Source: Lysobacter antibioticus HS124
GTDB taxonomy: Bacteria > Pseudomonadota > Gammaproteobacteria > Xanthomonadales > Xanthomonadaceae
Length of the DNA stretch: 42,227 bases
Assembly (NCBI RefSeq): GCF_000336385.2
Contig: NZ_HG424528.1
Span: forward strand, 19,734 to 61,960
Reading direction: 5' to 3'
The position numbers were made by a program, and so were the translations under genes. The notes under the pieces were generated by a model, which worked only from the letters and a program-made list of their open reading frames with translations, had not been told where the DNA came from and made no database searches. Shown here one piece after another: positions 1 to 42,227 of this stretch. Within the stretch, counting starts at the first letter, position 1. Each line of letters opens with the position of its first letter.

Positions 1-36
1 GGACTCGGGACTCGGGACTCGGGACTCGGGACTCGG
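1..36. repeat. GGACTCG heptamer tandem repeat
   Basis: Five perfect head-to-tail copies of the 7-base unit GGACTCG open the window, so the array may continue to the left. The unit is a variant of the GGGATTC heptamer found in four other places in this window. Up to position 278 the DNA holds only this array, a palindrome and the 93-base repeats described below; I see no gene there. Confidence 0.9.
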
Positions 37-97: not shown

Positions 98-278
98 CCC
101 CGAAGGGGCGGGGATTTGGAGACACATAGCGGGGCCCGAAATTTGCGCAGCAAATTTTGGGGTTTGTAGGGCGAAGCCCGAAAAACGCCACCCCGAAGGG
201 GCGGGGATTGGGGGGAACGAAGCGGGGCCCAAAGTTTGCAAAGCAAACTTTGGGTTTTTCAGGCGCAGCCTGAAAAAG

Positions 279-283
<5 letters not shown>
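98..283. repeat. Two tandem 93-bp palindrome-rich units
   Basis: Unit A starts at 98 and unit B at 191; both begin CCCCGAAGGGGCGGGGATT. Each carries the same three nested inverted repeats: CCCC-GAA-GGGG, then a longer AT-richer hairpin (in B, CCCAAAGTTTGC pairing with GCAAACTTTGGG; in A, a diverged version), then a short hairpin (GGGC-GAA-GCCC in A, CAGGC-GCA-GCCTG in B) followed by an A-run. Stems keep pairing while bases differ, for instance AAATTTGCGCAGCAAATTT in A against AAAGTTTGCAAAGCAAACTTT in B. This looks like covariation, hence a folded RNA or DNA. The last bases of B overlap the 3' end of rnpB. Confidence 0.75.
255..277 (-). terminator. Probable rnpB terminator hairpin
   Basis: TTTTTCAGGC and GCCTGAAAAA form a 10-base perfect inverted repeat around GCA. 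It lies one base past the P1 closing helix of RNase P RNA. Read on the minus strand, U5 follows rnpB immediately, and the same hairpin would work in either direction. A second strong hairpin (229-254) lies just beyond. Confidence 0.5.
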
Positions 284-640
<357 letters not shown>

Positions 641-9406: not shown

Positions 9407-9523
9407 GAAACGTTTCCCGCGTGATGTTGAGCGAAAAACGCCTCAAGGCTCGAAGACAACGCACGGGCCGCGGCGCGGCCGCAGCCTCGGGCGCCCGTCC
9501 TTGCGGCGGGCGTCGCGCGTAGC

Positions 9524-9685
9524 CGTCTTCTTTCATCCGGACTGTGACCGTCGGCTCCGGCATCGGACCGGATCTGCTGACCCGCCCGGCCGGGACGTCC
9601 TGGGACGCGCGGCCGGGCAGCGCTCGCGGGCTCGCGCGTCGCCGCGCCTACCGCCGGTGGGGAGTTCCGCCCCGCCCTGAAGACG
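9524..9685 (-). promoter_or_regulatory. FMN riboswitch (RFN element)
   Basis: The minus strand matches the RFN aptamer throughout. Closing helix P1 is CGTCTTC paired with GAAGACG. Inside are GGGCGGGGCGGAACTCCC, ACCGGCGGTA, the GCCCGCGAGC segment, GGTCAGCAGATCCGGT, CCGGAGCCGACGGTCACAG and TCCGGATGAAAGAAGA. FMN binding normally lowers expression of the downstream riboflavin genes by termination or by hiding the ribosome-binding site. Here 173 bases separate the aptamer from ribE. They include a 15-base near-palindrome GGCCGCG-C-CGCGGCC but no clean U-run, so I lean to translational or Rho-linked control. ribD lies upstream and is outside its reach. Confidence 0.97.
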
Positions 9686-9853
9686 TTACCTGTGGGTGCC
9701 GGCGAACCGGCGCGCGCAGTTTAGCACCGGCCGCCCGAGCGTCCGGAGCCGGCCCACCGCCGCGGCCGCGATGCAGCGTTCCGCCGCGGCGCGGCCGGAC
9801 CGGTCGCGGGCCGCCCCGGTGCGGCCTCCGGGCGGCCGCGCCGGCCGCTGGCC

Positions 9854-10633
9854 TCAGCCCGGCTTGCGCCGCAAATGCAGGTGCAGCGGCCATTGGACGG
9901 TGCGCACGTCCTCGGCCGCGCCCCAGGCCGCGCTCAGCGCCGCGCGGTGCAGCGCCACCGGGTCGTCGCCGGTGGCGGCTCGGCAGCGCTCGACAGCCGA
10001 CAGACTGTGCAAATAGCCCAGCCAGCGGCTCAGGCTCCATTCGGCCTCCAGCCACAACGCCGGCGCCGGCAGGGCGGCGAACGGCCAGCGGTAGCCGGCA
10101 TAGCCGTCGCGGACCTCGGCGTTCTCCGTCTGCCAATAGGGACCGATGCGGGCACGGAAGGCCTCGACCGCCTCGACCATGCCCTCCGGCGGCAGGAAAT
10201 CGCCATAGGCCCACACCGCCAGCACCCCGCCGGGCACCAGCACGCGCTCGCATTCGGCGTAGAAACGCTCGCGATCGAACCAGTGCATCGCCTGCGCGAC
10301 CGCGACCAGTTCGACGCTGGCATCGGCCAGCGAGCAGCGCTCCGCCGGCTCGATCGCCAGGCTCACCCGGCCCTCGCCGCGCAATGCCGCCTCGCGCGCC
10401 CAATGGCGCTCGATCTGCGCCGCGCTCGGCTCGGTCGCGTGCACCCGCTCGAACCGCGCGGCCAAGCCTCGGGTGGCCTGGCCGCTGCCGCAGCCCGGCT
10501 CCCACACCCGCACCGCCGTCGCCGGCAGTTGCGCGGCGATGGCGTCGAACATGGCGTCGGGATACTCCGGCCGCGACGCGGCGTAGCTTTGCGCCAGGGC
10601 GGAGAAATGGTCCTTGAAGGGATTCGAGCTCAT
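9854..10633 (-). CDS. Class I SAM-dependent methyltransferase
   Basis: A 259-residue protein of the Methyltransf_11 type. Motif I is VRVWEPGCGSGQATRGLA (about residues 41-58), followed by an acidic residue at the end of the next strand (VHATEPS), and then VELVAVAQAMHWFDRERF and VLVPGGVLAVWAYGDF, a pattern seen in trans-aconitate-methyltransferase-like proteins. The substrate is unknown. The gene sits between ribD and the FMN riboswitch and is read in the same direction; nothing links it functionally to flavin synthesis. Start chosen at the ATG just before NPFKDHFSALAQSYAASRP, which is where such proteins begin. Confidence 0.85.
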   Translation of the reverse strand: MSSNPFKDHFSALAQSYAASRPEYPDAMFDAIAAQLPATAVRVWEPGCGSGQATRGLAARFERVHATEPSAAQIERHWAREAALRGEGRVSLAIEPAERCSLADASVELVAVAQAMHWFDRERFYAECERVLVPGGVLAVWAYGDFLPPEGMVEAVEAFRARIGPYWQTENAEVRDGYAGYRWPFAALPAPALWLEAEWSLSRWLGYLHSLSAVERCRAATGDDPVALHRAALSAAWGAAEDVRTVQWPLHLHLRRKPG

Positions 10634-12510: not shown

Positions 12511-12633
12511 CGGGATTTGGGATTCGGGAATCGGGATTCGGAAAGTCAAAAGCGCTTGCGGCGGATGCCAGCATAGTGCCAAGCCGCCGCGAATGCGCTC
12601 TCCATCCCCGAATCCCTACTCCCGAATCCCGGC
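12511..12633. repeat. Palindromic GGGATTC-heptamer element filling the glyA-nrdR gap
   Basis: The left arm (12512-12541) is a run of GGGATTT/GGGATTC/GGGAATC heptamers. The right arm (12605-12632) is the inverted complement, CCCCGAATCCC and CCCGAATCCC. About 63 bases of non-repeat DNA lie between, including GCGCTTGCGGCGGATGCC. The element occupies nearly all of the 132-base intergenic space, ending 3 bases from the glyA stop and 7 bases from the nrdR start. Read as RNA the arms can fold into a long imperfect hairpin, so it might terminate or stabilise the glyA transcript. Confidence 0.85.
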
Positions 12634-17941: not shown

Positions 17942-17978
17942 GCCGGGATGGGGATTCGGGATTCGGGATTCGGAAAAG
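17942..17978. repeat. Single-arm GGGATTC-heptamer element after map
   Basis: Begins within a few bases of the map stop with GGCCGGGATGGGGATTCGGG and continues with two more GGGATTC units to about 17973. Its outer boundary (GGCCGGGAT) matches the nrdR-side and gspF-side boundaries of the other elements (CCGGGATT). No complementary right arm is present before pyrF, so this is a half element. Confidence 0.8.
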
Positions 17979-31153: not shown

Positions 31154-31260
31154 GGCCGGGATTGGAGATTAGGGATTAGGGATCAGTAAAAGCGGGAGGG
31201 GTCGAAGACGATCGAGTCGGGTGGATCCGCTTTGCGAATCCCCAATCCCCAATCCCGAAC
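31154..31260. repeat. Palindromic GGGATT-heptamer element filling the gspE-gspF gap
   Basis: Left arm 31159-31186 (GGGATTGGAGATTAGGGATT...) and inverted right arm 31236-31259 (GAATCCCCAATCCCCAATCC) flank about 50 unrelated bases. The 112-base gap between the gspE stop and the gspF start is almost wholly this element. The boundary next to gspF (CCAATCCCGGCCTCC-ATG) closely resembles that next to nrdR (AAATCCCGGCTTCCC-ATG). Confidence 0.85.
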
Positions 31261-34768: not shown

Positions 34769-37700
34769 TCAGCCCACCCACACCCGCGCGTTGCGGAACA
34801 TCCGCAGCCACGGCGAGTCGCCGCTCCAGTCCTTCGGCGCCCAGCTGAAGTTGGCGCTGCGCAGGGTGCGCTCGGGGTGCGGCATCAGGATGGTGGCGCG
34901 GCCGTCGGCGCTGGTCAGGCCGGCGATGCCGTCGGGCGAGCCGTTGGGGTTGAGCGGGTAACGGTCGGCGACGCGGCCGTCGCCGTCGACGTAGCGCAGC
35001 GCGACGTTGGCCGCGGCCTGGTCCAGGCCGCTGGCGAAGTCGGCGCGGCCTTCGCCGTGCGCGACCGCGACCGGGATGCGCGAGCCCGCCATGCCGCGCA
35101 GGAACAGCGACGGCGACTCGACCACTTCCAGCAGGCCCAGGCGCGCTTCGAACTGCTCGCTGCGGTTGCGCAGGAACACCGGCCAGTGCTCGGCGCCGGG
35201 CACGATCGGCTTGAGCTGGGCGAGCATCTGGCAGCCGTTGCAGACGCCGAGCGAGAAGCTGTCTTCGCGGGCGAAGAAAGCGGCGAAGGCGTCGCGCAGC
35301 GCGCTGCGCTCGAGGATGCTGGTGGCCCAGCCGCGGCCTGCGCCGAGCACGTCGCCGTAGCTGAAACCGCCGCAGGCGGCGAAGCCCTTGAAGTCTTCGA
35401 GCCGGAAGCGGCCGGCGATCAGGTCGCTCATGTGCACGTCGTAGGCTTCGAAGCCGGCCTGGTGGAACGCCGCCGCCATTTCGATCTGGCCGTTGACGCC
35501 CTGCTCGCGCAGGATCGCGACCTTGGGCCGCGCGCCGCCGATGTGAACGGCATGGGAGACGAACGGCGCGGCGATATCGTCGTTGGCGTCGAAGCCCAGC
35601 TTCGGCTTCAGCCCCGGGGCGTTGAAGTCGCGCGCGATCGCGCGCTCCTCGTCGGCGCAGTCGGGGTTGTCGCGCAATTTCTGCAGCGCGTGACTGGTCG
35701 ACCACCAAGCGTCGAACAATTCTTCCCAGCGCCACTCGACCAGCACCTTGCCGTCCTCCTTGACCCGCACCGAAGCGGCGGTGGTCGGCTTGGCGATGCG
35801 CTGGGCGCAGTCGATCAGGCCGTGGCGGGCGATGAGGTCGGCGAACTCGGCGCGGTCCTCGTCGTGGATCTGCACGATCGCGCCCAGCTCTTCGTTGAAC
35901 AGGGTGCGGAACGGATCTTCGCCCCAGCCGTCGAGGCTGATGTCCAGGCCCAGGCGCGAGCAGAACGCCATTTCGGCCAGGGTGGCGAAGGCGCCGCCGT
36001 CGCTGCGGTCGTGGTAAGCCAGCAGCAGGCCGGCCTCGCGCGCGTCGCGGATCAGCTCGAAGAAATCGCGCAGGCGCTGCGGACTGTCGAGGTCCGGCAC
36101 GCCGGTGTCGAAGCGCGCGCCCTCGCCGGGCAGGCCGGCGAACGCGGGCAGTCCGTCGGCCGCGCCGGCCTCCGGATGCACCTGGGCCAGCACCGAACCG
36201 CCGAGGCGCTGCTTGCCCGCGCCCAGGCCGATCAGCCACAGCTCGGTCTCGGCCTCGCGCGACAGCAGCGGAGTCAGCTGCTGGCGCACGTCGACCACCG
36301 GCGCGAACGCGCTGACGATCAGCGACACCGGCGACACCGACTTATGGGATTGGGGATTGGAGATTCGGGATTCGGCATCGGTCGCCGGGGAATCGCTCTT
36401 GCCAATCCCCAATCCCGAATCCCGAATCCCGTCGCTCCATTGCGCCTGCATCGACAGCGAATCCTTGCCGACCGGGATGCTCAACTCGAGCTCCGGGCAC
36501 AGCTCCAGGCCGACCGCCTTGACCGCGTCGAACAGCAACGCGTCTTCGCCCGGATGCGAGGCCGCGGCCATCCAGTTCGCCGACAGCTTGATCCGGTTCA
36601 GCGATTCCACCGGCGCCGCGCACAGGTTGGTGATCGCTTCGCCGACCGCCATGCGCGCCGCCGCGGCCGCGTCGAGCAGGGCCAGCGGGGTGCGCTCGCC
36701 GATCGCCATCGCTTCGCCCACAAAGCCGTCGAAACCGCTCAGGGTGATCGCGCAGTCGGCCAGCGGCAGCTGCCAGGGGCCGATCATCTGGTCGCGCGCG
36801 ACCAGGCCGCCGACGGTGCGGTCGCCGATGGTGACCAGGAAGTTCTTCGCCGCCACGGTCGGGTGCGCGAGCACGCGCAAGCCGGCCTGGTGCAGGTCCA
36901 GCCCGTCCCAGTCCAGCGCCGGCCACGGCGCTGCGGCCGGATGGCGGGTGTCGCGGTGCATCTTCGGCGGCTTGCCGAACAGCACGTCCATCGGCAGATC
37001 GATCGGCCAGTCCGCCGCGGGCTCGGCACCGTCGCCGTACACCGACTCGACGGTAGCGCCGTAGCCGACCACCAGCCGCTCTTCGGCGGTGGCGTAGCCG
37101 ACCACCGCGAACGGGCAACGCTCGCGCTCGCAGATCGCGGCGAAGTCGGCCACGCGATCGGCCGGCAGGCCGAGCACGTAACGCTCCTGCGATTCGTTGC
37201 ACCACAGCTGCATCGGCGACAACGAGGGGTCGTCGCTGGGCACCTTGGCCAGGTCGATCACGCCGCCCAGGCCGGAGTCGTGCAGCAGTTCGGGAATGGC
37301 GTTGGACAGACCGCCGGCGCCGACGTCGTGAGCGCTGTCGATCGGGTTGGCCTCGCCCAGCGCGACGCAGCGGTCGATCACCTCCTGGCAGCGACGCTCC
37401 ATTTCCGGGTTGTCGCGCTGGACGCTGGCGAAATCCAGTTCCTCCGCGCTGTCGCCGGAGGCGACCGAGCTGGCCGCGCCGCCGCCGAGGCCGATCAGCA
37501 TCGACGGGCCGCCGAGCACGATGACCGCATGGCCCGGCCTGAGGCCGAGCTTGGCCACCTGGACCCGGTCGATCGCGCCGAGACCGCCGGCGAGCATGAT
37601 CGGCTTGTCGTAGGCGCGGGCGATCTCGCCCTGGCCCAGTTCGAAGCTGCGGAAGTAGCCGGTCAGGTTCGGCCGGCCGAATTCGTTGTTGAACGCGGCC

Positions 37701-38797
37701 GCGCCGATCGGGCCGTCGAGCATGATTTCCAGCGCCGGGGCCATGCGCGGATTGAGCGCGCGCGGGCTTTCCCAGGGCTGCGGCAGGGTCGGGATGCGCA
37801 GGTGCGAGACGCTGAAACCGCACAGGCCGGCCTTGGGCCGGCCGCCGCGGCCGGTCGCGCCTTCGTCGCGGATCTCGCCGCCGTTGCCGGTGCTGGCGCC
37901 GGGGAACGGCGCGATCGCAGTCGGATGATTGTGGGTTTCGACCTTGATGCAGAACGCCGAAGGGATTTCCGCCTCGGCCGCGTAGGCCTGGCTGCCCGGC
38001 TGCGGCCGGAACCGGCGCGCGGCATAGCCCTCGACCACCGCCGCGTTGTCGCTGTACGCCGACAGAGTGTTCTCCGGCGTTTGCGCATGGGTGTGCTTGA
38101 TCATCTTGAACAGCGACAGCGGTTGTTCGCGGCCGTCGACGGTCCAGGAGGCGTTGAAGATCTTGTGCCGGCAGTGCTCGGAATTGGCCTGAGCGAACAT
38201 CATCAGTTCGACGTCGGCCGGCTCGCGGCCGAGCGCGGCGTAACGCTCGCGCAGGTAGGCGATTTCGTCGTCGGCCAGGGCCAGGCCGAGGCGGGCGTTG
38301 GCGGCCTCCAGCCGATCCAGCGGGATGCGTTCCAGTTCGCCGCGCGCCGGCACCGCGAACAGCGCCGCGGCATCGTCGCGTGCGTCCAGCAGCGACTGGG
38401 TCATCGGATCGTGCAGGGCCTTGGCCAGCGCCCCCTGGGTGGCGGCATCGGCCGGCCAGCCCAGGAGGTCGTAGCGGGTGCCGCGTTCGACCCGCTTGAC
38501 CGGCTGCCCGGCGCCGCGCAGCAGCTCGGTGGCCTTGCTGGCCCAGGGCGACAAGGTGCCCAGGCGCGGGGTGACGTAGCGCGAGACCGCGCCGTCGGCG
38601 CGCGCGGCGGCCTCAGGCTGCGCCTGCAGGATGCGGCGCAGGGTCGCATCGTCGGGCGCGGCGCCGGCCTCGGGCTCGACCCAATACACGGGCCAGGCAT
38701 CGAGCAGACGCACATCGGGGTGGATGACTTGCAGGCGGGCTTGAAGCCGATCGCGGCGGAACGAAGACAGGGCCGAAGGGCCCTCGAGGACGATCAT
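34769..38797 (-). CDS. purL: Phosphoribosylformylglycinamidine synthase PurL
   Basis: Large single-chain FGAM synthase: converts FGAR, glutamine and ATP to FGAM in purine synthesis. 1342 residues against 1295 in E. coli. The N-terminal part begins [20 protein letters not shown]; the catalytic ATP core shows [35 protein letters not shown]-type [18 protein letters not shown], and [15 protein letters not shown]; the glutaminase domain at the C terminus has the nucleophile Cys in [15 protein letters not shown], with VAHGEGR and [10 protein letters not shown]. Residues 790-818 are encoded by an inserted heptamer-repeat element. A longer upstream frame without homology was not used. Confidence 0.97.
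36344..36430. repeat. In-frame GGGATTC palindromic element inside purL
   Basis: Eighty-seven bases (29 codons) with a heptamer arm at 36346-36374 and an inverted arm at 36402-36430. On the purL strand it encodes residues 790-818, starting [13 protein letters not shown] and ending [11 protein letters not shown]. coli PurL has only about ten residues (QEGNEEREMT) between the matching Trp and the SPLSLVISAF strand; removal here would leave about five. The arms match those of the intergenic elements, so this looks like an insertion tolerated in a surface loop. Confidence 0.88.
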
Positions 38798-39943: not shown

Positions 39944-40187
39944 GGGGAATAGGTTCTGCCGATTGTGGCACGGGCGGCGCCGCGATCGCGGTACCGCGAC
40001 CGGATCGCCGCGCGAGTGGCGATGCCGGTCGCGGTTTGCGGCGCGGGCCGCCCGTCGCGTGGAGTGTGCGCCGGCCCGGGGCCGCCGGGGTGAATGCGCC
40101 GATGTGCGGGGGACAAGGACCGGCGGACGGAAGCCAGGGAGGGAGGGGGGCAAGCCCGCTCGACGCCCGCCGTGACGCGGAGGTGCT

Positions 40188-40352
40188 GGCGACCTGACCC
40201 GACGCGCCCGGCCCGGCACAGGGGCGCCGGGCGTTCGGATCAGCAGGCGGCCGTGCCGCACGCGGCTTCGTTGGGGGTACTCGCGACCTGATCCGATGCG
40301 CCCGGCCCGGCGCAGGGGCGCCGGGCGTTCGGATCAGCAGGCGGCCGTGCCG
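40188..40352. repeat. 94-bp tandem repeat, about 1.75 units, 3' of xerD
   Basis: The segment starting CGACCTGACCCGACGCGCCC recurs 94 bases later (GCGTTC at 40231 and 40325) with few differences. Each unit has a CCGGCCCGGC..CGCCGGGC inverted repeat and GGCCGTGCCGCACGCGGCTT or its beginning. The second copy ends 16 bases from the xerD stop. Same family as the array at 41928. Confidence 0.85.
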
Positions 40353-40367
40353 CCTGAGCGCTGATCC

Positions 40368-41927: not shown

Positions 41928-42227
41928 GCGGGCGTTCGACCAGCCCAGGCGGCAGTGCCGCACGCGGCTTCGGGCGGCTATGCATGAGCTGGAGGGTTAC
42001 GGCCCCGGCCCGGCGCAGCGCGCCGGGCGTTCGCCAAGCCCAGCGAGCAGTGCCGCACGCGGCTTCGGGCGGCTATGCGTGAACTGGAGGGTACGGCCCC
42101 GGCCAGGCGCAGCGCGCCGGGCGTTCGACCAGCCCGGGCGGCAGTGCCGCACGCGGCTTCGGGCGGCTATGCATGAACTGGAGGGTACGGCCCCGGCCCG
42201 GCGCAGCGCGCCGGGCGTTCGCCAAGC
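41928..42227. repeat. 94/95-bp tandem repeat array, more than 3 units, to window edge
   Basis: The marker CACGCGGCTT occurs at 41961, 42056 and 42150, giving periods of 95 and 94. Units carry GTGCCGCACGCGGCTTCGGG, CGGCTATGCATGAACTGGAG and a stem CCCGGCGC-AGC-GCGCCGGG. The longer period comes from one extra T in GGGTTACGG. The array starts about 22 bases after the RDD stop and is cut by the window end. No gene lies in 41907-42227. Confidence 0.92.

Follow-up and report, generated by a model that had tools for sequence, protein, structure and literature searches.

Tandem heptamers of the types GGGAATC and GGGNATC are known from Xanthomonas, where Rehm et al. (2015, PMC4692102) described arrays of GGGANTN units, about four per array with a preference for that number, often arranged as convergent inverted pairs and mostly intergenic. 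In the portions of that paper examined, 83% of the repeats were found at the same place in two Xanthomonas species (one of them axonopodis pv. citri) with length and sequence varying, 7-11% were intragenic, meaning at least partial overlap with an open reading frame (ORF), G-quadruplex (G4) formation was observed in vitro and no role in gene regulation was identified; its main text mentions neither in-frame copies nor purL or hrpA, and names dnaE once, as a repeat-associated gene. Other repeats reported within genes, as described in the sources consulted in part, are 1) the Rickettsia palindromic elements (Ogata et al., via review PMC10969869), in-frame palindromes of about 150 bp in unrelated housekeeping genes, 2) the GTAG/CGTC repetitive extragenic palindromes (REPs), for which Di Nocera et al. 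(2013, PMC3733652) described short intragenic copies in replication and repair genes of several bacteria, recB of X. campestris and of X. oryzae carrying one at roughly the same position, and 3) the enterobacterial RU elements, small repeats with ORFs that are found intragenically (PMC2759123). Here we analyze 42,227 nucleotides of Lysobacter antibioticus HS124 (contig NZ_HG424528.1; hereafter the window), in which a palindromic heptamer element of 87 bases (36344..36430, minus strand) lies in frame inside purL, together with its counterparts in related genomes.

The purL gene (34769..38797, minus strand) encodes a phosphoribosylformylglycinamidine synthase of 1342 amino acids, covered by NCBIfam NF003672 over residues 1-1342, and the element, referred to as site A, corresponds by translation to residues 790-818. 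In the coding direction, the first arm (36403..36430, minus strand) consists of four heptamers, GGGATTC GGGATTC GGGATTG GGGATTG, followed by a spacer (36374..36402, minus strand), whereas the second arm (36346..36373, plus strand) reads GGGATTG GGGATTG GAGATTC GGGATTC; the arms are thus convergent arrays with eight units in total, one of them being GAGATTC. Where the spacer begins, at the inner edge of the first arm, stands GCAAGAGC (36395..36402, minus strand), which resembles sequences seen by inspection next to other copies; among 90 arrays, motifs of this kind, defined post hoc from inspected copies, occurred within the inner 14 nt in 48 and within the outer 14 nt in 13, and 5.5% of random 14-mers contained one. 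The original prediction, a stop-free, in-frame GGGATTC palindrome at this position that belongs to the same family as intergenic repeats and sits in a housekeeping enzyme, is borne out: the convergent arrays are readable on both strands, translation of 36344-36430 contains no stop in the frame used, and intergenic arrays of the same heptamer are present in the window. Exact GGGATTC was found 12 times in the window, compared with 4.68 expected and a maximum of 11 across 100 shuffles, and its four places outside purL were at 10619, 12.5 kb, 17.95 kb and 31.2 kb, the last three being intergenic arrays. The genome as a whole (G000) contained 149 exact GGGATTCGGGATTC dimers, against 0 for the reversed control pattern. 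RNA folding of 36336-36440 gave -48.6 kcal/mol, compared with -38.25 +/- 3.89 for shuffles (z -2.66); since 4 of 200 shuffles folded equally well, the energy by itself provides modest evidence. For PurL residues 604-1012, the AlphaFold model had a mean predicted local distance difference test score (pLDDT) of 43.5 and was too poor for use.

To place site A among its relatives, 96 PurLs were aligned, from 20 genomes of the genus and from 76 of 80 kept loci (the best 80 of at least 586); below, G007 is a second assembly of the same species, G016 a sister species, and the other G and L codes are relatives. L057, L058 and L066 were left out as contigs of G018, G012 and G014, respectively, and L059 stands for G005. 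Loop length could be read by a regular expression in 94 PurLs; in the two that it missed (L080 and L083) the alignment had no insert block, so both were scored as uninserted on the tree. The loop was exactly 7 residues, followed by KSV, in 68 of the 94, it was 11-12 residues without arrays in 3, and in 23, from four genera, it was heptamer-derived and 13-52 residues long, with 6-45 net extra residues; among these, 21 had an exact array of at least two units by regular expression, and visual judgement added G010 and L121. The loop of the best-matching solved PurL (1T3T, from Salmonella) has 10 residues, the same 7 plus KSV, in agreement with the short loop of about ten residues that the original prediction gave for E. 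coli PurL. Between QAQW and KSVSP, the HS124 protein has 31 residues as opposed to 7 in repeat-free relatives, which amounts to a net 24 additional residues, or 72 bases; the 29 residues said to have been added stand as a span but not as a gain. Likewise, the expectation that relatives lack residues of about 790-818 agrees with the bare 7-residue loop in the majority of PurLs but does not extend to the 23 inserted ones. The element is therefore an in-frame insertion relative to a 7-residue loop; the same loop has been filled in several lineages, and the insert is not peculiar to strain HS124. Single-contig relatives G019, G003 and G004 carry versions of their own, GGGAATC units being found at this loop in G003 and G004. 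It was also observed that the G004 purL (C1:4906299-4909995, in a single-contig genome) is interrupted, with one TGA and pieces in different frames, and that L117, in a record titled Bacillus subtilis SK7B5, grouped among Stenotrophomonas by PurL and is probably mislabelled or contaminated.

A second PurL loop, site B (37007..37039, minus strand), is a short loop after residue 586 that is empty in G000, and the same alignment revealed heptamer inserts there in 10 Xanthomonas rows, L088 (Pseudoxanthomonas) and L100 (Stenotrophomonas). Exact arrays were present in 26 of the 96 PurL rows, the two loops accounting for 22 and a single short array near residues 23-31 for 4. Repeats of other kinds were also noticed in PurL. 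Site B of G003, G010, G012 and G018 holds another repeat family, with peptides like SLLPPAGEGARRADEG...HPHPNPSPASGRG and LPLPLAGEDRGEG...PSQPSPASGGRS, and in Pseudoxanthomonas sacheonensis (L084:3151-3420) a site B repeat contains an in-frame stop, so that either purL is split in this genome or the draft contains an error there. Two short inserts, one KPVLSRVEG-like (G009, G011, G012, G013, G018 and L077) and one PYMDV..AQDAQE-like (L076, L088, L102, L104 and L117), follow G000 residues of about 1004 and 1077 and resemble other dispersed repeats in coding frame.

Related inserts were found to fill fixed loops of three further proteins, DnaE, HrpA helicase and MetH, whose orthologues were drawn from 30 genomes; as some of these loci were cut, the counts are lower counts. 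DnaE had inserts at one loop in 3 genomes, spelled in three different ways (G019, G014 and G020; see below), and the G033 row had an array near residue 56 of the open frame, apart from the shared loop. Exact arrays were present in HrpA of 11 genomes (first loop in 11, second loop in 6) and in MetH of 11. HS124 itself carries exact arrays at two places in HrpA helicase and also in MetH, so that a search for heptamer peptides in further coding genes, as had been proposed, was positive. In MetH of G003 and G004, the non-heptamer family described above for site B fills the loops that take heptamer elements in other species.

Overall, coding copies were scarce. In HS124, a coding-score census of the first 100 of the 149 exact GGGATTC dimers, minus three contig-end clusters and dropping elements less than 260 bases from the end of a stretch, classed 1 of 58 exact-array elements as coding, and it overlooked the HrpA and MetH copies later found in the orthologue alignments. 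In the single-contig genome G019, 5 of 26 elements (25 in 23 stretches taken from the list of its GGGACC-type heptamers, plus purL) were in frame in coding sequence, namely in HrpA (two), DnaE, MetH and PurL. None of 42 elements from G016, G014 and G001 was coding; because their stretches had been chosen without the known PurL, HrpA and DnaE places, this is no rate for those genomes. The low census counts and the recurrent loops together indicate that coding copies are rare and concentrated in few loops. One HS124 place, L178, considered as a coding copy, was unclear under the first rule and not coding under the second. GGGACT-type arrays, considered as a marker of coding copies after those in HrpA, DnaE and PurL of G001, G014 and G016, were discarded as such, none of 26 elements in stretches selected for other arrays of this type being coding.

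The heptamers could be sorted into five dialects, GGGATT(C/G), GGGAAT(C/G), GGGACT(C/G), GGGACC(C/G) and GTGATT(C/G), here called ATT, AAT, ACT, ACC and GTG, respectively, and exact dimers of each were counted in 40 genomes, in which reversed control patterns gave 0-8 dimers per strand. When the dialects of the 23 PurL inserts were assigned by eye, 17 proved to be spelled in the commonest dialect of their own genome, compared with 6.8 expected; in 20,000 permutations none reached the observed log score and one reached 17 matches. With one row per insertion group (10 groups, 60 draws, L121 being placed with the other Xanthomonas as on the tree), the log-score p was at most 0.0007, and plain top matches numbered 5-8 of 10, with a median p of 0.007 and a largest p of 0.057. 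Single genomes show the same correspondence: among the 20 genomes of the genus, G019, with an ACC insert in PurL, had 98 ACC dimers and every other genome 0 or 1, while G022 had 47 GTG dimers and 3 of other kinds, and its PurL insert is GTG. The DnaE inserts mentioned above are ACC (G019), ACT (G014) and GTG (G020). The spelling of an insert thus mostly follows the heptamer dialect of the host genome.

The dialect has also changed between sister species at orthologous places. In HS124 and G016, 6 of 6 such places within one block (-2.1 kb, 0, 12.5, 17.95 and 31.2 kb, and purL) keep an array yet differ in dialect. Within the window, these comprise a GGGACTC array at the window start (7..34, plus strand), which is AAT in G016, with the caveat that the HS124 array directly adjoins a stretch of N in the contig; an inverted ATT copy (12512..12630), whose counterpart is mainly ACT in G016 and ATT in G006; a single ATT array (17951..17971, plus strand), whose counterpart is AAT in G016, G002, G001, G003, G004 and G010 and ATT in G008; and an inverted ATT copy (31158..31256), whose counterpart is AAT in G016, G002, G003 and G004 and ATT in G006. 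In 40 kb beside purL of 18 relatives, most of the aligned arrays fell at a small number of positions, intergenic in HS124 (12.5, 17.95 and 31.2 kb), a few short or mixed arrays and those at about 7.5 and 15.1 kb being left unclassed. At the -2.1 kb place, four right-arm units match one by one between the two species, two of them with odd bases in common, and the variable position differs in each. A comparable case is provided by Xanthomonas arboricola, in which both purL arms of L110 and L130 differ (ATTG vs AATG) around a similar spacer. As the dialect changed at kept positions, the arms were apparently rewritten in place. The original prediction held the element to be mobile or copied; the evidence points more to fixed places with rewritten heptamers, with some spread of an inserted allele by recombination, as in DnaE.

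On whole-gene trees, the insert label required 5 changes in HrpA (5 forced), 3 in DnaE (3 forced, and no better than label shuffles) and 6 in MetH (5 forced), the labels being assigned by eye. On the 96-row PurL tree, built after dropping columns filled in less than 80% of rows, 9 changes were needed, 7 of them forced by starred branches; none of 500 label shuffles was as low, and the label is therefore clustered by descent as well. Within the genus, a local DNA tree of 600 nt forced three groups, G000/G007/G016, G019 and G003/G004/G010, the upstream 300 nt alone forcing 1 and the downstream part alone 3; since rows were taken as a gap-free alignment, G010 lies on a long branch. Within 25 codons of site A, shared derived bases between the genus groups numbered 0 in four pairs and 1 and 2 in two wider pairs, with 1 in the control pair. 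DnaE gave a different picture, in that G014 and G019 alone share 12 bases, absent from sister rows, in 3297 compared positions, and 11 of these cluster at the insert: 2 occupy its columns and 9 its flanks, at most 15 codons before it or 25 codons after it. This pattern suggests that a short recombination tract probably carried the inserted DnaE allele between species, whose arms are now ACT in G014 and ACC in G019. In HrpA, 15-22 of 25-40 shared bases were in or near the loop, nearly all of them within the loop, whose alignment is uncertain.

Tandem GGG-type heptamers contain no stop in any of the six frames and encode one cyclic heptapeptide per strand. Being open, with the same heptapeptide in every frame, such arrays would be constrained in a gene by total length modulo 3 only. 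Half of all heptamers (77% at 69% G+C) are equally open, so that openness is helpful but not special. Tandem GTGATTC, on the other hand, would put a TGA every 21 nt, and the three coding copies of the GTG dialect (purL of L079 and L070, dnaE of G020) have GAA, CAA and TCA at the would-be TGA codon, which fits selection for read-through and hence translation. In all likelihood the insert is translated, and the enzyme tolerates it without requiring it for catalysis.

Taken together, these data make it probable that the purL stretch and its counterparts are tolerated protein-coding palindromes that consist of the heptamer repeat known from Xanthomonas and have their arms rewritten in place. The purL stretch would then be one coding copy of an element that is common in the family and pairs two arrays, each with some four heptamers (GGGANTC and variants), in convergent orientation. 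Selection would remove most insertions into genes, while a few flexible loops tolerate extra residues, and stop-free arrays with one cyclic heptapeptide in any frame would aid survival in such loops. Rewriting may proceed by copying between repeats, through slippage, template switching from arm to arm or short-tract conversion by other arrays, such that the loop peptide would shift as the genome dialect shifts, and an inserted allele may occasionally cross species by homologous recombination. Several observations weigh against this reading. Six of the 23 inserts (G016, G010, G020, G024, G028 and G030) are off the commonest dialect of their genomes, and with one row per group the significance by top match alone is moderate. 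The purL spacers of G000 and G016 are dissimilar, so the insertions there may be separate, and the pattern at -2.1 kb is not explained by simple slippage or by wholesale conversion. The shared flank in DnaE means that two insertions were probably one, and event counts are therefore upper bounds; tree counts, moreover, cannot separate gain from loss. Finally, an open frame was the criterion by which coding copies were recognized, so the changed TGA codons are no proof of translation.

Among the alternatives, mobilization by a transposase fares best, although we regard it as unlikely. An inverted pair, either a REP or REP doublet (REPIN) served by a REP-associated tyrosine transposase (RAYT) or a miniature inverted-repeat transposable element (MITE), would be cut or copied into preferred sites including that in PurL, and hundreds of dispersed copies, the inverted pairs and the inner motif are in keeping with this. 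When the G019 stretches were compared with those of G015, 4 of 23 had a counterpart, one partial and one a clean empty intergenic site; the latter is one clean gain of G019 relative to G015, but no clear target duplication was found at it. The Y1 transposase domain PF01797 was detected in 38 of the 40 genomes regardless of heptamer load, being present in G036, G037 and G039 despite 0, 1 and 0 heptamer dimers, respectively, whereas neither G008, a one-contig genome with 350 dimers, nor G030, with 274, gave a match; RAYT mobilization is thus unsupported. Nor did GTAG/CGTC tags exceed chance at array ends: of 87 arrays, 7 had one at the outer and 4 at the inner end, compared with 14% at random.

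More doubtful is a single old insertion in each gene, passed down vertically and followed by numerous precise losses and by exchange of alleles through recombination. Consistent with it, nine Xanthomonas PurLs of one clade are all inserted, with similar spacers in at least L106, L110, L116, L126 and L130, the clustering of the label on the PurL tree and the flanking changes common to the G014 and G019 DnaE inserts would follow from it, and L134 and G010 look like partial deletions. Repeated deletion would hardly be expected to leave exactly 7 residues in all 68 uninserted rows, a regularity that speaks for gain, and the three genus groups share no flank at PurL site A.

A trans-acting factor that sets one dialect per genome is a long shot. 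With such a factor, a sequence-specific DNA-binding or copying enzyme and possibly a template-directed one, hundreds of fixed sites would be rewritten to match whenever it changed, including those in purL, dnaE, hrpA and metH. The idea derives from the dialect changes at six of six places and from the units at -2.1 kb, in which odd bases were kept and one position changed; if true, a genome-wide repeat code would directly edit loop peptides of essential enzymes. Less credible still is that the element is selected rather than tolerated, the heptamers serving as binding or structural sites, for instance as G4 or for a DNA-binding protein, that regulate or mark purL, dnaE, hrpA and metH. Conservation of position while sequence changes, the -2.1 kb arm with its one changed position in each unit and its odd units kept, and the four-unit preference and in vitro G4 formation of the Xanthomonas repeats (PMC4692102, as far as examined) would suit such a role; against it, 71 of 94 readable PurLs have no insert at site A and 27 of 30 DnaEs have none at their loop, and the portions of the same paper examined identified no gene-regulation role. 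Despite HS124 being a draft in which several contigs end in such arrays, an error of assembly, or a normal variable loop that has nothing to do with repeats, has a negligible chance, because G007, assembled in 3 contigs, carries loop DNA identical to that of HS124 at site A, which counters the assembly error named as an alternative in the original prediction, and because the single-contig genomes G019, G003 and G004 have loop versions of their own.

As to other features, contigs C19, C57, C61, C65 and C76 of HS124 start or finish within heptamer arrays, a sign that the assembly may be broken by them. The window also contains an ordinary RNase P RNA (278-637, minus strand), an ordinary flavin mononucleotide (FMN) riboswitch (9521-9688, minus strand) and 94-bp tandem repeats at 40182-40353 (about 1.8 copies) and 41929-42221 (about 3.1 copies).

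Tolerated palindromes rewritten in place, as favored here, would add the free-living Xanthomonadaceae to the hosts of protein-coding palindromes and the heptamer arrays to the repeats that form them, and have measurable traits: the same loops refilled (PurL twice, HrpA helicase twice, DnaE and MetH), spelling mostly in the host dialect and a lost would-be stop codon. They open to testing the questions of how, in the absence of a known transposase, short palindromes get into genes and how one spelling is kept up across hundreds of repeats, and they point out loops of PurL and of the replicative polymerase that naturally tolerate insertions. In the open-licence literature we found no report of in-frame heptamer inserts in PurL, DnaE, HrpA or MetH, of recurrence in the same loop or of genome dialects, although the supplementary list of Rehm et al. 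may name some of the genes.

Compared with the systems described above, the RU elements are, as far as their description was consulted, different repeats in different hosts. The GTAG/CGTC REPs resemble the heptamer arrays in being short palindromes in genes, but the arrays lack their tags above chance and do not track Y1 transposases. Similarity to the Rickettsia palindromic elements, as originally proposed, is one of effect, the inserts in PurL, DnaE, HrpA helicase and MetH likewise being palindromes in frame in protein-coding genes, housekeeping enzymes among them; in the descriptions compared, the Rickettsia elements differ in occurring in another host group, in not being described as heptamer arrays and in having no reported dialect. 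The closest relatives are the repeats of Rehm et al., with which the purL element shares tandem GGGANTN units, the convergent pair and four units per arm, and the repeats of HS124, like theirs, are mostly intergenic (1 of 58 sampled elements coding). Their search rule asks for at least one exact GGGAATC, whereas the units in the purL copy are GGGATTC/G, so that it is of the same kind but not a member under the literal rule. The parts of that paper examined contain neither the genome dialect, nor its match in coding copies, nor the recurrence in the same loop, and the kept positions with altered arrays observed here agree with the same-place repeats of varying sequence recorded there.

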